31,194 nucleotides of DNA, taken from positions 1 through 31,194 of the IMG/VR virus record IMGVR_UViG_3300045789_000649; one strand, written 5' to 3'. The position numbers and the translations under genes were made by a program. Position 1 is the first letter of the stretch; every line of letters begins with the position of its first letter. Below the pieces are notes generated by a model. It was given only the letters and a program-made list of their open reading frames with translations. It did not search any database and was not told where the DNA came from. Below are positions 3,719 through 13,321 of the stretch, piece by piece. This DNA comes from a virus.

Positions 3719-4617
3719 AAGCTCTCCACCTCAAGTGCAACTTTGGAATTCCCGACCCCTTCAGCAGTCGTTTGCGCAGATCGAACAATTCCGTAGACCG
3801 AAAATTCTGGATGATTGCTTTGGCCCGAGAAGATTGTCGCGATCCCGTCGATGTCACTGATCAGACGCCAGAAGGGATCCCCCTCGTAGTCAGTCAAAAC
3901 CACGTTGTAAGAGATTGTCGCGGAAGCCGTGCGGCGCAAAAGCGAGGTTAATGTCCCTTCGGTTTTCTTAACCGAGCGGCTCTTCAGGCTGCGCCCTGTG
4001 CCAACAGTCACTCTCCCGAAGCTTGACACGATACCAAGCCCGATCGCGCTTACTTCCGCAGTTCCGCCCGATCTCGATATGGTGATTTCAATCACCGCGC
4101 CCTTGGGAATATTCACGTCAAAGTTCAGATATTTGCGCTCGAACGATTGCGGCAGGAACATCCAGCGCCAAAATGATCCGCTATAGCCAGCGGCATCCTG
4201 CAGGTCATAGTCGATGTCGCAAACATCGCCCGTTGTATCCTGAGTTCCGACAATGCGGATATTTGTGGCCGAAAGCCCGAACATGGCAATTCCGGAAATG
4301 CGCGTCAGCCCTTCCAGCGTGTAGGTGATGCTTTCTGCGTTGCTCGTAACCGTTTCAATCACTCGGTATTTGTCAGCTCCGAACTGCATATCAAAGGCAG
4401 CAAAGCGATTTGCAGGACCAACATTGAACCAATCAGACGCGGTTTCGCTGGGCTCTTCTGTTGTCGTTGCCGCGCTAACCTCATAAAGCACCTCGCCCAC
4501 GCGCGCCTGATCCCCGAGGTTATATGTTCCGGCTGTCCATTCCGTTTCCAGATCCACATTCGAAGCCGTGATATTTTCCGCCCCGATCAGGATAGGCGCC
4601 ATAATTTGCAGCGTCAT
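3715..4617 (-). CDS. Minor tail protein with N-terminal CBM5/12-like segment
   Basis: This 300-residue protein directly follows the tape measure gene, with an ATGA overlap. Residues 28-65 (WTAGTYNLGDQARVGEVLYE, then Thr/Glu-rich sequence and a closing DWFNVG) match the pattern of short carbohydrate-binding modules of the CBM5/12 kind, which recur in phage tail proteins. The rest looks like beta-rich structural protein, with FWRWMFLPQSFERKYLNFDV in the middle. In other siphophages this position is held by distal tail or tip proteins (DUF2460-like in Rhodobacterales phages), but I do not see that signature. A tail-tip assignment is therefore an inference from order and composition. Confidence 0.62.
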   Translation of the reverse strand: MTLQIMAPILIGAENITASNVDLETEWTAGTYNLGDQARVGEVLYEVSAATTTEEPSETASDWFNVGPANRFAAFDMQFGADKYRVIETVTSNAESITYTLEGLTRISGIAMFGLSATNIRIVGTQDTTGDVCDIDYDLQDAAGYSGSFWRWMFLPQSFERKYLNFDVNIPKGAVIEITISRSGGTAEVSAIGLGIVSSFGRVTVGTGRSLKSRSVKKTEGTLTSLLRRTASATISYNVVLTDYEGDPFWRLISDIDGIATIFSGQSNHPEFSVYGIVRSAQTTAEGVGNSKVALEVESL

Positions 4618-7600
4618 AGTGTGGCCTCCACTGCCAAAAGAACCTGCTCTTCGCTGCTATCCGCTGTTTTTCCAGTATTTGCCGCCGTGATCTCGGAAGT
4701 GCTTTGCAGCATGTCTAGCCGCGCATTCATCGCCCGCAGCTCGACCAGCATTTCAGCCTGAGACACCAGCGGCGCATAATCGATGCCACTGTTTGCCCGC
4801 GCCATGCCGCGCCGATAATCGACACCCGTTGCGAACGCATCCTCATCAACCGCAGAATTCAGCGCGCCAGAGAGCGTGTTCGCCGCCTCAGTCACACTGT
4901 CGAACGCAGGCGCGAGCATGATAAGCTGCGCCGCAAGGTCGCTATCCCCGCCAAGCATGGCAGTATCGACCAAATCGCGGAAAGCAGCATGGGTCTCTGG
5001 CACAAAGTTGATGCCAAGCCCGGTAAGGCTTTCAGTCAGCCGCGCAGTCGCGTTCGCAAGCTTTTCATTGTCGCTATAAAACGCATCATAATAAGCCGCC
5101 GAGGCCGAGGTGAAATCATCCAGAGAGCCAAACAGATTGGCAAACTCATCCGCAGCATCAGCCCCCGCCAACGACACATTGAAAGCGCTGAAGCCAAGAT
5201 CGCGGAAGGCATCATTCACTGTGCCAAGCGCCGTGCTAAGCCGCGTCAGAGCATCATATGCCCCCTCGCCAGCCGCCATAAATTCATCAAGGCCGAAAAT
5301 CTCTTCGGCCATCGCATCGCCAAGCCCTTGCAGCGCTTCCAGAACAGCCGCTTCCTTGGCCGCATCATCAAGGTCTTTAAGCGATACGCTGAACTCATGG
5401 CTGAATCCGGTGAGCACATCAGTAGACAGTCCAAGACTATCGATCGCACCGATCACGCTTTCCTGAATACCAAAGACAGCAGCAGTAAATGGAGCCGCCT
5501 CATCATCTGAAATGTCGCTGTACTTAAAGCTGGTGCGCTTGCTTAGCCCCCAAAATTGCGATGTCTGGATCTTCTCGAAACTCTCGAACATGGCATTTTC
5601 CATGTCGATCGTTGCACGGATCCCGGCATCAAGAAGCTTTGTCTTTTTCTGGAAGAAGCTGAACACGCCCGCGACAATGCCAATCACAGGAAGCGCGGCA
5701 CCGATAGATGCGAGAATACCACCACCAGCTGCAGCTGCGTTTGCCCCAACGCTAAACAACCCGCCAAGCCCGCCCCCTGTGCCAAGCGTAGAGGATAGCG
5801 TCTGGCCCAGACCACCGAGGAATCCTGTGCCCCCCGCAAGGCTGCTAAATCCCGCAGCAAGGCCGCCAGAGCCGAACAGCGAAGCCCCTTCGCCAAAGCC
5901 ACCAAGGAGCTTGCCACCCAGCCCGGACAGCAGCCCACCGCCGCCAGACGCAGCCTTCCCCGCGACCGATGTCCCGCCAACACCAAGCGCGATCTTGATC
6001 GGGTTTGCGATTGCAGTGGCAATCATCTTGGAAACCATCTGCTGAAAGGCACTAAGCATGCTGCTTGTGAACGTGCTGAAGTCCTTGAACCCGCGCGCGG
6101 CCCAATCCCCCAACGCGCTCGCAGCGCTGTCGATCGCGCTGACAAGCGGCCCCTTGATCGTATCGGATGCCTTCTTCGCCCCTTTGGAAACCTTATCCCC
6201 TGCGGTCGTTCCTGTGCCGCCAAGCGTAGAGACCACTGTATCTGTCGTTTCCGCCGCTTCGCCCGCGGCATTCATCGCCTCACGCAGACGCCCCACAGAT
6301 TTCAGCGGAAGGCCAGCAAGATCCCGAAGCGCCGTGGCCGTGGCCTCATGGCCAGCCGCGACAGACTTGGCATTCTCCGCAGCATGCCCCAATGCAGAAG
6401 CCCAAGCCTGCGTTGCCATAGTGTCGATCTTAAGATCCGAACCGATTAACTCGGATATCTCATTCAGCGGCGTACCGATCTTGCTTACGAAGTCAGCCCA
6501 CTTCTGCCCGAGATAGGCAATCCCCGAAGCCCAGATCCCTTTTACATCCGCAACCAGCCCACGAAACGACTCTGCGAATGCAAGAGCATGCAAGCGCATA
6601 GCCGACCAAACCTCGCGCGCGACATCTCCGATAAGGACCATCGCCTCGCCAAATCCACCAGCCCCCTTCACAAGATCCGCGAACTTCGCAATCAGATACC
6701 CTGCCCCAACAACAAGCGCGCCGATGCCGGAAGTGATCAAAGCCGTTTTCAAAGCAGCCAAAGCCCCAACAAGCGAAAATGTCGAGATTGTTGAAAGAGC
6801 CAGCGCACCAACATAGCGAACACCGAAAGCCGTAACAGCAACGCCCGCGCTGTAAGTAATCACATCAAGATTGCTGATCAGACCATCGATCACCGTGCGC
6901 AGAAGCCCGCCCGCGCGCATGGAATCATTGAAGCCAACAACCAACGATGTCAGCGCCGGGGCAAGCTCTCCGCTGATCCGGTACCCGATACCTTGAACCG
7001 CTGTCGATGCATCCCCAAGCGCGACCCTTAATCCCTTCAAGGATGAAACCGTGCTCGCGCTCATAACGCCGCCAAGGCTCGCAGCATTCTCCCCGAGCCG
7101 CGCCATCTCCACCCCGCCATCCCGCAGCAGCGGGATAAGCGCAGTTGTGTCCGAGGCCATAGCTTCAAGGTAGAACGTCATCTCCTGCTGGCTCGCACCA
7201 GCCTTTTGCAGAGAATCCACATAAAGCTGCAAAGATTGCGGCCCCGACAAACCCTTGAAGGCGTCTGCTGTGATGCCGATTTTGGGCGCGATCTTCTCGA
7301 AGAAATCAGCCATCGGGCCGCCGCCTGTGGTCAGAAAATCACCCACGCGGTCATTCACATCTTTCAGAATATCGGCCAGCTTTTCCTGCCCGATCCCAAC
7401 GCTCTTCGCGCCAGCAGCCCACTGCTGGAACTCGCCGGTTGATGCGTTTGCTACTTGCGAAAACCTGCTGATTTCAGCAGCGGTCTCTGAAGTCGCAACG
7501 GTAAGCGAAACTAATGCCGCACCGACTGTCGCAGCTGCTGCGCTTACCGCGAGAAATTTCGTCCGCATTCTTTTAATCGGATCATCGAGACGCTTCACGC

Positions 7601-7871: not shown

Positions 7872-8243
7872 ATGAGTGACAACTTAAAATTGGCGCTGAT
7901 AGCGCTGGCGCTTCTTATCATGGCCCCATTCATAATTTTATTCAGGTCAGTTACACCGGAACCCAAGCAGATCTCCCAAGCAGAGAAAGACGCAGGAATT
8001 TTGCGCATCGCATGTAGAGACGAGATTAGCCGAGCATTGCATGATCCATCATCCGCAGAATGGGGCATTGGTAACGATGGCTGGTTCCAAACATGGCCGG
8101 TCAGCGATGACGGGAACAACTTGACCGCTACAGCCACATTCAGAGCCAAGAACGCCTTCGGCGCGCTGGTTAATGCCAGATATCAATGCTCAGCCGTTAG
8201 GATCGACGGAATGCTTTCCTTAACCAGCATCAAGAAGCGCTAA
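7872..8243 (+). CDS. Membrane-anchored moron protein with a DPSSA/NAFG domain
   Basis: This 123-residue protein has one N-terminal hydrophobic segment (about residues 6-25) and then a soluble domain that would lie in the periplasm. The domain has a Cys at CRDEI, the motif DPSSAEW, a TFRAKNAFGALV strand and a second Cys at YQCSA, so a disulfide is possible. It lies on the strand opposite to its neighbours, between the tail chaperone and tape measure genes, and GAGAGG precedes its ATG. Its TAA overlaps the TAG of the convergent chaperone gene (shared CTAA at 8240-8243). Similar features occur in the lipoprotein at 23130-23498. The orientation and lone envelope location suggest a lysogeny-expressed moron, perhaps for superinfection exclusion. 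That function is inferred. Confidence 0.75.
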   Translation: MSDNLKLALIALALLIMAPFIILFRSVTPEPKQISQAEKDAGILRIACRDEISRALHDPSSAEWGIGNDGWFQTWPVSDDGNNLTATATFRAKNAFGALVNARYQCSAVRIDGMLSLTSIKKR

Positions 8244-8518
8244 CCTTTAGACCTCAAAGCCAGAGCAATAAACGCTCCCCGCGCCCGCTCCTGGTTTGCC
8301 TCATCAGATTCAGGCTTGGCCTCATCCGCTTCAAGCTTATAGGAAGGCATGTTTTTTGGGTCATGCTGCGCAAACGAGATCAATCTCGCCAACTCGTAAT
8401 TTCTGATCCGCGCCGCTTCATGCTCGATGTCATCCTGCTTCCGGCTCGCCTCGACAATGCGAACAATCTCTGCAGGCGTAAGCTCCCAAAAAAGCGGATA
8501 GTCTAGGCGCGCGGACAA
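8240..8518 (-). CDS. Tail assembly chaperone, distal (T-like) frame, reached by -1 frameshift
   Basis: The frame encodes a helical region (SARLDYPLFWELTPAEIVRI, then a charged helix) like the distal half of lambda G-T type chaperones, which load on the tape measure before tail assembly. It has only a TTG start, with no good ribosome site. Reading upstream, the frame stays open without a stop to 8599, the end of the slip site in the preceding gene. It lies in the -1 frame relative to that gene. The natural product is therefore most likely a fusion of both genes. Its stop codon overlaps the stop of the opposing moron gene. Confidence 0.75.
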   Translation of the reverse strand: MSARLDYPLFWELTPAEIVRIVEASRKQDDIEHEAARIRNYELARLISFAQHDPKNMPSYKLEADEAKPESDEANQERARGAFIALALRSKG

Positions 8519-8538
8519 CCACGCGCCCAGAAGGTTTT

Positions 8539-8913
8539 CTATGTAGTCGGCGCGCTCGCCTCGGCGGTTGCGGGTTTTCCCGCCCGGACCTTTCCCGGCT
8601 TTTTTTCCTCATCATCAGACGGGAATGCAAGCGCCGCAGCCTCCGAGATTTTTTCAAGCGCCTGGGCGAACCCTGCCTCATCCATCAGATCGCCCGCCGC
8701 TTCTGGCGTCATATCTTCAAGATGCGACACGCCGGCCCAGAACAGATTGCGCATACGGCGCACATCGCTCTGATTGGCTTGAAGCGCCGCGATGCCTTCA
8801 AGGAAAGACTCGCCAGTGTGGTCCTGATAGCGAACCATCGCGTTTGTGTTGACCCGAACAATGTAATCAACACCGCCCACAGTAAGCGTCACGCCGCCGC
8901 GCTTGCTGTTCAT
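8539..8913 (-). CDS. Tail assembly chaperone, proximal (G-like) frame
   Basis: The protein has 124 residues. It starts at the ATG at 8913, which overlaps the stop of the tail tube gene (TAATG); a TTG at 8940 is less likely. The N-terminus is beta-rich (GGVTLTVGGVDYIVRV), followed by helices and a low-complexity charged C-terminus with DDEEKKPGKV. This is the layout of the first tail chaperone between tube and tape measure genes. Codons GAA AAA AAG near its end form the slip site A AAA AAG, so a fraction of ribosomes should shift to make the longer chaperone. Confidence 0.85.
   Translation of the reverse strand: MNSKRGGVTLTVGGVDYIVRVNTNAMVRYQDHTGESFLEGIAALQANQSDVRRMRNLFWAGVSHLEDMTPEAAGDLMDEAGFAQALEKISEAAALAFPSDDEEKKPGKVRAGKPATAEASAPTT
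8599..8605 (-). promoter_or_regulatory. Programmed -1 frameshift site A AAA AAG
   Basis: The minus strand reads GAG GAA AAA AAG CCG in the chaperone frame, which gives the canonical heptamer A AAA AAG. Slipping by -1 makes the next codon GCC and leads through an open frame (AGKGPGGKTR... to SARLDYPLF) into the gene at 8240-8518. I traced this frame codon by codon and found no stop. This heptamer is one of the best-known slippery sequences in bacteria (as in dnaX), and -1 shifting is usual for this gene pair in siphophages. Confidence 0.85.
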
Positions 8914-9353
8914 TAGCTCGCAGCCGTACCGCGCGTCCAATCAACACCGCCTGTTGTGCGGATATCGATTGTAAGCCCAACAAGTGCGCCAACATCATTC
9001 CCCTCGGGCTTGGGTGTCGGGAACCCCCGGAACTCAAACACATCGCCCGTAGATTGCGAGGGCTGCGGCTTGAGTGTGCAGCGATAATAGATCGGAGCCG
9101 TTTCGGCCTGGTCAGCGAGCTGCTGCTCATAACCTGCCGCCGTATAGCCAGCAGGAACACTGATGACACCGGCATCCTTCAGGCCCTTAACATATTCCTT
9201 GAAGCCGTCAGCGCTGTCCAGCGAAGTCGCTTCAAGATAGTCGGTTTCGACAAGCGGGATTGCGATGCCCTTACATTCTGGAATCGCAGCGAATGTGACG
9301 CCATCGGTAGAGCGCTCGACTGTCGCTCCATAAGAAATGATTTGTTCGCTCAT
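8913..9353 (-). CDS. Major tail tube protein
   Basis: This 146-residue protein has the usual tail-tube plan: a beta-rich start, a long loop region (SLDSADGFKEYVKGLKDAG, then VISVPAGY) and a closing GALVGLTIDIRTTGGVDW strand, as in gpV-like tube proteins of siphophages. Tube proteins stack as hexamers around the tape measure to form the DNA conduit. GGAGG lies five bases before the ATG at 9353. It is followed at once by the chaperone pair and preceded by the DUF3168 tail-completion gene, the standard order. No C-terminal Ig-like extension is present. Confidence 0.85.
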   Translation of the reverse strand: MSEQIISYGATVERSTDGVTFAAIPECKGIAIPLVETDYLEATSLDSADGFKEYVKGLKDAGVISVPAGYTAAGYEQQLADQAETAPIYYRCTLKPQPSQSTGDVFEFRGFPTPKPEGNDVGALVGLTIDIRTTGGVDWTRGTAAS

Positions 9354-10442: not shown

Positions 10443-10770
10443 TACTGACCTCCGCCCCAGCTGTGATTTCCAAGAGATCATTCCGGCCAACTTCCTTGAT
10501 GCCGAAGATCTCATACGAAACGCCGCGATAAACGATGCAATCCTTTGGCGTGAGCTCGCGCGCAAACGAAGAAGATCGGATCTGGAACCGCGCTGTCAGC
10601 GTTGCTGAAACACCGTCTGCCCGCGCCTTCTCCCCGTCACTTACATCAGTTTTTTTCGCCCAGACCATTCCGCCATAAGCAGCCCATTTCTTGACATTAG
10701 AAAACCCATCATCCTCAACCGTGAAACGCTCAAACGAAATGCGCCTGTCAAATTCGCCCGCCCCCATCAT
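10423..10770 (-). CDS. Phage head-tail adaptor (head closure) protein
   Basis: This 115-residue protein carries the head-tail joining pattern: GEFDRRISFERFTVEDDGFS near the start, a central W-A-K-K strand, ARFQIRSSSF, then DCIVYRGVSYEIFGIKE. This matches the SPP1 gp16/HK97 gp9-like family of small beta-barrel stoppers that plug the connector after DNA packaging. The ATG at 10770 overlaps the upstream stop as ATGA. It is followed by the gp10-like gene, the normal order. Confidence 0.85.
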   Translation of the reverse strand: MMGAGEFDRRISFERFTVEDDGFSNVKKWAAYGGMVWAKKTDVSDGEKARADGVSATLTARFQIRSSSFARELTPKDCIVYRGVSYEIFGIKEVGRNDLLEITAGAEVSNGNSQS

Positions 10771-11303
10771 CCGCGCCACACCCGATAAGGAGCCAAGAGG
10801 GAATGATACGCCATCGGAAGTGCTGAAGCATTTGTCCCGACAACCACAGATTCACGGTTTAAATATAGCGTCCCGACATGCAGCAAGATCGCCGCTTTGA
10901 TTGCCGCCGGGGCCTCATCTTCGCCAGCAACAAACTCGACAGTCACAGAGCCAGAAGGCCAAGCCGCACCACTATTCAACCGCAAGAATGGCCCCCGCCC
11001 GTCCTTCAGCTGCTGATAATCCTCAAATGCCCCGGCTTCGCTGGTAACGCTGACAACCGAAGAAACAGGGCCAAGAGGCAAAACCAAATCGCCCGAAGCA
11101 ATCTCGTATTCCTGCGACCATGTTTGCGCCATAATGCAGCGGCCAAGCGTACCGCTGACCCCGTCCAAATGGCCCGTTGCCGCAGAGATCAGCGCCGCAA
11201 CCAGAGTATCCTCATCATCACTATCCACGCGGCAATGAAGCTTTGCCTCTTCAAGTGAAACAGGCGTTTCAGATGGCGGAGCAATTAAAACAGGTGAAAG
11301 CAT
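10767..11303 (-). CDS. Head-tail connector protein (HK97 gp6-like)
   Basis: The protein has 178 residues and is mainly helical at both ends. It opens with APPSETPVSLEEAKLHCRVD, the hallmark start of phage gp6-like connector proteins, followed by D-x-D-x-x-L and ISAATGHLDG. Its C-terminal helix (IKAAILLHVGTLYLNRESVV) is also typical. Members form a ring beneath the portal. The ATG at 11303 lies inside the 3' end of the preceding frame by 19 bases, and its own end overlaps the adaptor gene by ATGA. Confidence 0.85.
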   Translation of the reverse strand: MLSPVLIAPPSETPVSLEEAKLHCRVDSDDEDTLVAALISAATGHLDGVSGTLGRCIMAQTWSQEYEIASGDLVLPLGPVSSVVSVTSEAGAFEDYQQLKDGRGPFLRLNSGAAWPSGSVTVEFVAGEDEAPAAIKAAILLHVGTLYLNRESVVVGTNASALPMAYHSLLAPYRVWRG

Positions 11304-11878
11304 TTAGCCGCCTCGCTTAATGTCATTTTTGGATAAGCCGTAAGGCTTGAAACAGGGCTGGCGTTCAAAACCTCAACCCCAATATGCAACAGATCAACCG
11401 CCGCGCCATCCATCGCCGTGGCCCATTGTCTGATCTTTACTTTGCTCGGGTTTGTCAGCCCGCCCGTATGATCGCCATGCCAATGGGATCCGCCAGCAAG
11501 CGTCATATCAAAACCGATCAGGATGATCCGGCTTGCGCCAAAACAGGCAGCCAGATTTACAGCCTGGAACCCGCTGTTCTTGGCAGACCCGATGCATCTG
11601 TCGAACTGCATGCGATTCTCTTTGCGCATAGGAACCGCGTAAACGTCCGCGCTGCGTGATGCCGAAACCTTCAACCCGTCGAAATGTTCAGGCGCTTCCT
11701 TGCGCCACCAGATCGCGTCTGCCGCATATAATACATCCGCCCAAGGCGCTAATCGCCAGGATGAATTGACCGCTAGGACTTTGCAGCGGCCTTTGATTTT
11801 TTCGACGCCCGCCCCTTTGGCGCTGGGGCCGCTGGCGATGACTGCACAGGTTTGTCCTGTCCAGTCTGGCCATCCACC
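11285..11878 (-). CDS. Rossmann-like phage protein without a normal start, probably made by frameshift
   Basis: The minus-strand frame is open from 11914 to 11285. It shows strong coding character well upstream of its first standard start (TTG at 11674): WTGQTCAVIASGPSAKG, then VNSSWRLAPWADVLYAADAI and W-W. Further down are IILIGFDMTL and SHWHGDHTGG. The GPS and GFDM/HWHGDH motifs recall Rossmann-type phage proteins near DUF115/MptE-like families, whose N-terminus normally begins close to the ASGPS motif. No ATG, GTG or TTG exists between 11914 and 11674. The frame is -1 relative to the overlapping gene at 11773-12057, which has a C CCT TTG slip site. It may be a fusion product, start at a non-standard codon, or reflect an indel. 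Confidence 0.65.
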   Translation of the reverse strand, partial: GGWPDWTGQTCAVIASGPSAKGAGVEKIKGRCKVLAVNSSWRLAPWADVLYAADAIWWRKEAPEHFDGLKVSASRSADVYAVPMRKENRMQFDRCIGSAKNSGFQAVNLAACFGASRIILIGFDMTLAGGSHWHGDHTGGLTNPSKVKIRQWATAMDGAAVDLLHIGVEVLNASPVSSLTAYPKMTLSEAAKCFHLF

Positions 11879-12057
11879 AAAGGGGCCGCTTTTGTCTCCA
11901 TCACATAGGCCGCCTTATTCAGCGGCGCTGGCTCGGATTTGACAAGAACCCCGCGGCTAACGAGATGCGCGACATCATTAGGACGCGCCGTGCGCTTGTC
12001 GCCAACCCGGTATTGTTTATCACCGAAATGCTCACGTGCTACGATGTAATCTTCCAT
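11773..12057 (-). CDS. Small protein downstream of the capsid gene, with Ala/Lys-rich tail
   Basis: This 94-residue protein starts at the ATG at 12057 behind a near-perfect GGAGGT. The first 45 residues (MEDYIVAREHFGDKQYRVGD, then ARPNDVAHLVSRGVL) look like a compact beta-helix fold. The last 40 are Pro/Ala/Lys-rich and end SKKSKAAAKS. Genes of this size directly after the major capsid gene are often small head-completion proteins, but I do not recognise a family. Its 3' third overlaps the Rossmann-like frame, and C CCT TTG lies at codons 58-59. Confidence 0.65.
   Translation of the reverse strand: MEDYIVAREHFGDKQYRVGDKRTARPNDVAHLVSRGVLVKSEPAPLNKAAYVMETKAAPLVDGQTGQDKPVQSSPAAPAPKGRASKKSKAAAKS
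11878..11884 (-). promoter_or_regulatory. Candidate -1 slip site C CCT TTG
   Basis: In the frame of the 94-residue gene the minus strand reads GCC CCT TTG GTG, giving an X XXY YYZ heptamer CCCTTTG. After a -1 slip the next codons are GGT GGA TGG CCA GAC TGG, which run open into the ASGPS-containing frame. A weak ACAGG/CCTGT hairpin lies about 20 bases downstream. A second run, TCG AAA AAA TCA, further along could also slip. Function is inferred from the lack of a start codon for the downstream frame. Confidence 0.4.
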
Positions 12058-12115
12058 AGTACCTCCGATCAATTCACAGAGAGGGCAAGTCACCCTGCCC
12101 CCCTTAGAAAATTGA

Positions 12116-13321
12116 TTAAGTCACGTTGCCAAAGTCGCCAGTGATAAACGCTTCAGGGCGATAAACGGTAAGAGCAAGACGCTCTTCCGCAAGGATCGTC
12201 ACAAGGTTTTTGGTGAAGTCATCATTCTCATAACCGACCTCAACGCGAGCATCCCAACGGTCCCAAAGCTGCGCACCCATCGCAAACGCACCGGTAAGGA
12301 ATTTGTCCACCGACATGGACTGCGTTTCAACAACAGGCAAACGCCAGAGCATCGGAGTAGAGCCACCCTGCGGATCGCCAATGATGTGACGCTTATCCGC
12401 ATCCTTGGTCAGCTCGATGCGCGCCCAATCAATCGGATGCATAACGTGGCCAGTTGCAGGATATTCCGCCAGCACTGCCTGAAGCATTGCAAGGCGCATC
12501 TTGTCGATCGGCGTTTCATCTGAAACCGCAAACTCGGCGGAATACGCGCTGGCCTGCGTCACGATGCCATCGAGATTCTGGCCTGTGCCGTCACCGTTCA
12601 AAATCTGGTTTTCTTCTTTCAACGCCAGACCGTAGAGTAAACGCCCATCAATGTGGCCGCGAAGCTGGTCAACATCATCCAAAGCCTGACGGGACACTTT
12701 CATCCAATGCGCAACGACTTTGGCAACGCTGGTCTTTTCGGCCAGCTTGATATCAGACTCGCCTTTTTTTACGCCCTCGGCGACCATGCCCGCGTTATTC
12801 GTGAAGCCGGTTTCTTGGATCCATGAGATCGATGCTTCGGACATTTGTCCCTGCGTCAGCAAATCACGGATTGTCATGCGGCGCTCCGGCCCCGTGACAA
12901 TGCCAGGAAGCCGCTGGCGATCAGCCCCGGGGCCAACAGAACCGGCTGCGTCAGTTGTCGCCATAGTAAGTGTGGCCTTGAGGCAGAGATCAGCCTTACC
13001 TTGGCGCGGCCCCTGTGCCAGCCAAGATTTGACATTTTCGTCATTCACGAAACGAGCGCCAAGCGTCTTGGCTTCCACTTCATCAACGTCGCCACCGCGC
13101 GCCATTTTTTGCGCCATCTCTTTGACTTCTTCAGTCAGCTCATTGAGCTTAACAAGCGCAGCGTCAGCGTCATCTTTCATCTTTTCGGTGACTTTTTCAC
13201 CGGACTTAACTTTTCCAAGCGCTTCTTCGGCGATCGCTTTCACCGCGTCTGTGGACTTGGAGAAGTCAGCCTTCAGGTCAGCGGCCATTTGCTCCGCTGT
13301 TTTCACATCATCTCGTGCCAT
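12116..13321 (-). CDS. Major capsid protein, HK97 family
   Basis: The protein has 401 residues. About 1-100 form a charged coiled coil (AEQMAADLKADFSKSTDAVK onward), the delta/scaffold domain of HK97-type capsid proteins. After it comes the core fold, with a GPGADRQRLPGIV strand, DLLTQGQMSEASISWIQE, VSRQALDDVDQL, ILNGDGTGQNLDGI, and MHPIDWARIELTKDAD followed by the P-loop-like GGSTPMLWRLPVV. These are classic marks of the family. AGGAG precedes the ATG at 13321. The prohead protease lies just upstream and probably removes the delta domain, with the cut expected near residue 105. Confidence 0.95.
   Translation of the reverse strand: MARDDVKTAEQMAADLKADFSKSTDAVKAIAEEALGKVKSGEKVTEKMKDDADAALVKLNELTEEVKEMAQKMARGGDVDEVEAKTLGARFVNDENVKSWLAQGPRQGKADLCLKATLTMATTDAAGSVGPGADRQRLPGIVTGPERRMTIRDLLTQGQMSEASISWIQETGFTNNAGMVAEGVKKGESDIKLAEKTSVAKVVAHWMKVSRQALDDVDQLRGHIDGRLLYGLALKEENQILNGDGTGQNLDGIVTQASAYSAEFAVSDETPIDKMRLAMLQAVLAEYPATGHVMHPIDWARIELTKDADKRHIIGDPQGGSTPMLWRLPVVETQSMSVDKFLTGAFAMGAQLWDRWDARVEVGYENDDFTKNLVTILAEERLALTVYRPEAFITGDFGNVT

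Follow-up and report, generated by a model that had tools for sequence, protein, structure and literature searches.

Candidate programmed -1 frameshift fusing a predicted sialyltransferase-like domain to a small post-capsid gene in diverse phages

Organization of the capsid-proximal locus

The window analyzed here is a 31,194-base virus record. Its minus strand encodes, in order, terminase, portal, a gene in the protease position and an HK97-type major capsid protein (12116-13321; PF05065, E 1.2e-58), followed by a small gene A, an open frame B and a gp6-like head-tail connector or adaptor. The connector gene (10767-11303; PF05135, E 4.4e-07; phrog_442) has its own ATG and overlaps the end of B. 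Gene A (11773-12057, minus strand, 94 aa) is preceded by a GGAGG ribosome-binding site (12062-12066) and runs from an ATG at 12057 to a TAG at 11773; it matches phrog_14535 (E 3.6e-11). AF2 modeling of A yielded a folded N-terminal domain of about 40 residues (pLDDT 89-95 for residues 1-40) followed by a low-confidence, disordered linker, with only weak Pfam matches to DUF7210 and DUF7302.

Frame B (11285-11914, minus strand) is open from stop to stop for 209 codons and lies in the -1 frame relative to A. Its conserved part starts near 11850, yet its first ATG, GTG or TTG is the TTG at 11674, downstream of the ASGPSA and WRLAPWADV motifs. Within A, and in its X_XXY_YYZ phase, lies the slippery heptamer C_CCU_UUG (11878-11884), followed after 5 nt by a predicted stem-loop (11833-11872; MFE -34.3 kcal/mol over the 70 nt from 11873, z -2.93; z -3.47 over 90 nt). 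Slippage at this site would use B from the heptamer to its stop (11285-11884), giving a predicted A-B transframe product (11285-12057) of 257 aa, in which 60 residues of A are joined to 197 of B (junction ...KAAPL/GGWPDWTGQTCAVIASGPS). An earlier note had reported the start-less frame and heptamer and proposed a possible -1 frameshift; the frame, its missing start and the heptamer were confirmed. The heptamer alone could be chance in a single genome (probability about 0.16 by codon shuffling of A), but it is not chance across the family, as described below.

Frame B encodes a confidently modeled domain

B matches phrog_4603, labeled alpha-2,3-sialyltransferase, over its full length (E 1e-50), and relatives match PF01973 MptE-like (49 of 55 members). 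The model of B built from window positions 11884-11288 has a mean pLDDT of 93.8 and a pTM of 0.91, with the first core strand starting at residue 12, just after the proposed junction; together with the profile match, this indicates that B is not a chance ORF. In Foldseek searches the best solved match was CstII (1ro7; prob 1.00, E 1.2e-3, TMq 0.57), the GT42 sialyltransferase of Campylobacter (1ro7/1ro8), followed by a Pasteurella and, more weakly, human sialyltransferases. CstII was also the best PDB profile match, although only weakly (E 0.025). The earlier description of the frame as Rossmann-like is right in outline. The GPSL motif, [TN]SG helix and L-x-G-x-D strand align in order with CstII and PF01973 MptE-like, whereas identity is 11% and the HWHGDH motif is peculiar to the phage family. 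Invariant residues comprise the GPS motif, N40, D56, G124, D126 and HWH..H; the NSG motif is nearly invariant. A metallo-beta-lactamase match for HWHGDH (NCBIfam, E 0.025) was rejected as below cut-off and inconsistent with the fold. Assignment of B as a glycosyltransferase of the CstII/GT42 fold remains an inference; that B is a glycosyltransferase we regard as somewhat more likely than not.

Relatives share the missing start and the -1 overlap

The closest relatives, loci L007 and L008 (61% identity), keep CCCTTTG in the same phase, as does Tetraselmis viridis virus S20 (TVS20, 40%), in which a TGA in frame B directly precedes CCC TTT, so that the shift cannot occur earlier. Pseudomonas phage D3 carries C_CCA_AAG in orf6.5 before orf7, and this CCCAAAG is present in 92 of 92 D3-like loci. 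Psp6 has T_TTT_TTG, which is further upstream and less certain.

To test the arrangement across the family, we scanned IMG/VR and, once, GTDB genomes, using sub-family alignments because an alignment of seven distant B proteins was too divergent for a contig scan, and retained 162 loci non-redundant at 85% over 120 residues. Of these, 97 have no start before the GPS motif; 93 of the 97 have an ORF of 70 aa or more at -1, against 20 with one at +1. The other 65 have some start codon, 20 of them with the -1 ORF as well. An A-domain profile, built without reference to frame, found A beside B in 102 loci: 101 overlapping at -1, none at +1, none as a separate upstream gene and one in the same ORF as B. 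Among the 101 loci, 86 have no start at all and 12 more have none within 75 nt of the motif. By contrast, 45 loci with their own B start have no detected A; B homologues with their own ATG include P1 PmgO, PAJU2 ORF010 and enterobacterial relatives. The iterated A profile drifted and does not recover the window's own A, although it recovers that of L007 (57% identical in A), and the window was therefore placed through L007 and the PHROG hits. The arrangement is clustered but widespread on the B tree (112 frameshift rows, 43 own-start, 13 changes; FastTree, many weak branches), and the loci share ancestry, so counts are not independent events. The ORF upstream of A matches the HK97-type capsid (PF05065) in 90 of 93 loci.

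Slippery heptamers are enriched and turn over between lineages

In the A linker, strict X_XXY_YYZ heptamers occur in 63/101 loci against 21.2+-3.9 expected from codon shuffling. Heptamers ending in AAA or UUU (NNN.AAA/UUU) occur in 53/101 loci against 6.4+-2.4 expected (maximum 15 in 1000 shuffles), and in only 9 and 6 in the other two phases. Common types are GGGAAAA (15), CCCTTTG (14), CCCTTTA (7), AAAAAAA (6), AAACCCT (6), CCCAAAG (4) and GGGAAAC (4). The remaining 38 loci lack a strict heptamer; most of these carry a weaker C_CCY or similar tetramer, mostly C_CCU or C_CCC at the same place, and one locus, L415, has neither. In E. coli, C_CC.U_UU.G is frameshift-prone and under-represented, C_CC.A_AA.G is the strongest motif measured, and C_CC.Y tetramers shift (PMC4066793). 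Different heptamers sit in sister lineages, suggesting replacement under selection and making the family a natural series for measuring frameshift rules outside E. coli.

A downstream stem appears selected in part of the family

General downstream folding energy over all loci was only weakly low (z -0.73 vs about -0.35 in controls). We then tested a specific stem pairing with the GPS-motif codons: in a large clade, the 5' arm GGCCGCTGGCG pairs with CGCCAGCGGCC of the GPS codons. As both arms also encode conserved B residues, comparison was made with sequences that keep the B protein and its codon usage. Mean z was 2.54+-0.25 in that clade, 1.54+-0.21 over all loci with near slip sites, -0.12+-0.25 for loci with distant, far-upstream sites and 0.26+-0.18 for own-start loci. 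A stem thus appears selected in part of the family, not all of it, and is well supported in one large clade only. A recurring A C-terminal tail, SSASPAAPASPQTT (for example locus L353, 2331-2597), is simply the frame-0 reading of the codons for B's VVCIASGPSL, so its conservation need not mean function in A.

Conservation switches frame at the heptamer and natural fusions join at the same point

Between the window and L007, upstream of the heptamer A is 9/12 identical and B 5/12, whereas downstream A is 8/14 and B 12/14. Pooled over 92 non-independent pairs, the same switch is seen (0.188 vs 0.134; 0.401 vs 0.508). Moreover, two relatives, L251 and L037, encode A and B as one ordinary ATG-started ORF after the capsid gene. 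Upon alignment with predicted slip products of relatives, the junctions coincide: L251 reads ...YQTKVLRDRP-RDGRWDTVVCIASGPS, and L343 by slippage ...YQTKVIRDRP-LANRWRTVVCCASGPS. The A part of L251 is found by the profile (E 3.6e-7); for L037 the profile is not significant and the case rests on its likeness to L157. L300 and L321 are weaker candidates.

A programmed -1 frameshift as the best explanation

Although protein and ribosome-profiling evidence is lacking, the computational data strongly support a programmed -1 ribosomal frameshift, which we hold with high confidence. In this reading, most ribosomes read A to its own stop, whereas a fraction, with P-site Pro-tRNA on CCU and A-site Leu-tRNA on UUG, slip back one base onto CCC UUU at C_CCU_UUG, helped by the stem-loop just downstream, and continue in frame B to yield a minor A-B fusion.

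ALTERNATIVES

Separate translation of B from a non-AUG start inside A, or by re-initiation after A, is unlikely. An in-frame ATC lies just before the motif in the window, and SD-like 4-mers precede some near-cognate codon in 14 loci; however, 44/101 loci have no CTG, ATT, ATC, ATA or ACG either before the first strand, and A's stop lies past the start of B, so re-initiation would have to move backwards. Nor does this explain the strict -1 phase, the heptamers or the in-frame fusions. RNA polymerase slippage is plausible only at the A7-type runs (AAAAAAA in 6 loci); CCCTTTG, CCCAAAG and GGGAAAA are not long homopolymers, and a phase-specific X_XXY_YYZ preference is a ribosomal signature. Initiation of B at TTG 11674 resembles public annotations of D3, U7, 5399, phPA-G, TVS20 and Psp6, in which B starts downstream of or inside the conserved N-terminal part, but it would remove the first core strand and the invariant GPS and N40 residues, which own-start homologues include. 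A sequencing or assembly indel, or a recent mutation creating a pseudogene, could not be excluded from one contig without reads but is refuted by the relatives, since the missing start recurs in 97 of 162 loci from many assemblies, nearly always with A at -1, finished isolate phages (D3, Psp6, TVS20) show the same overlap, and B stays intact and conserved.

Possible role and comparison with known recoding sites

Fold searches of A gave only weak matches (ribosomal L9 N-domain, GINS B domain, YqbF; all E > 0.5). We infer that A belongs with small proteins encoded after capsid genes, as suggested by the weak match to YqbF (2hjq), which probably lies by the capsid gene of the B. subtilis skin element. 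A, encoded directly after the capsid protein, would tether B to the head or head assembly, where B could act, for example by modifying a virion surface, while slippage would keep the enzyme-bearing form scarce; head tethering remains tentative. It is likewise possible, but not more than that, that proteobacterial and environmental siphophages use this locus to mount a few copies of a sialyltransferase-like enzyme on a head-associated adaptor, so that virions or assembling heads carry or receive a glycosyl modification. Downstream genes in relatives include methyltransferases and glycosyltransferases, which fits a surface-modification module. In TVS20 (L002), a second gene annotated as a B-like alpha-2,3-sialyltransferase (4419-5096) sits in the same gene cluster, next to a glycosyltransferase and a methyltransferase. 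In L049 (2495-3997) and L161 (1363-2454), B continues in frame into further domains that look like other glycosyltransferases by eye.

In the records examined (D3, U7, 5399, phi1, phPA-G, TVS20 and Psp6), B is annotated from a start downstream of or inside the conserved N-terminal part, or omitted, and no joined CDS is shown. For orf7 of D3 (L004, NC_002484.2, 2322-3040) and its D3-like homologues (also L460, L461, L462 and L463), the annotated start lies downstream of the conserved N-terminal part, or the gene is missing (phi1), because the frameshift is not recognized. A second deeply conserved site, next to the capsid gene and carrying an enzyme-like domain, would mean that reference genomes such as D3 are misannotated, and would offer a specific handle on the unknown small post-capsid proteins and on phrog_4603. 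The earlier note's statement that this gene pair is not a known frameshift site is consistent with the papers that could be searched: the recoding review (PMC5009743) covers Ig-like extensions and tail genes and has no sialyltransferase or glycosyltransferase case in the part examined, and the main texts of Antonov 2013 and PRFect 2024 do not mention this pair, although prior notice in supplements or subscription papers cannot be ruled out.

Frameshifting in phage morphogenesis is known mainly from tail chaperones and Ig-like extensions. In T7 10B and the T3 and A2 Ig-like domains (Fraser et al. 2006; PMC5009743), a fraction of a capsid or tail protein gains a C-terminal domain by frameshifting, and in-frame versions exist in relatives. 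Here, the donor is a small gene after the capsid gene rather than the capsid protein itself, the appended domain is modeled as alpha/beta and sialyltransferase-like rather than Ig-like, and a single locus is conserved across about 100 non-redundant lineages. In the tail assembly chaperone frameshift (lambda G/GT; Xu et al. 2004), -1 slippage in a structural-module gene of siphophages likewise makes a minor C-terminally extended product from an overlapping ORF without its own start, but that site lies between the tail tube and tape measure genes and serves tail assembly, whereas the present one lies between the capsid and connector genes. The window also contains a separate, probable site of this classic type (8240-8940, minus strand), where the gene at 8539-8940 carries A_AAA_AAG (8605-8599), GGGAAAG and GGGAAAA (8581-8575), and the next frame (8240-8518 and upstream) continues at -1.
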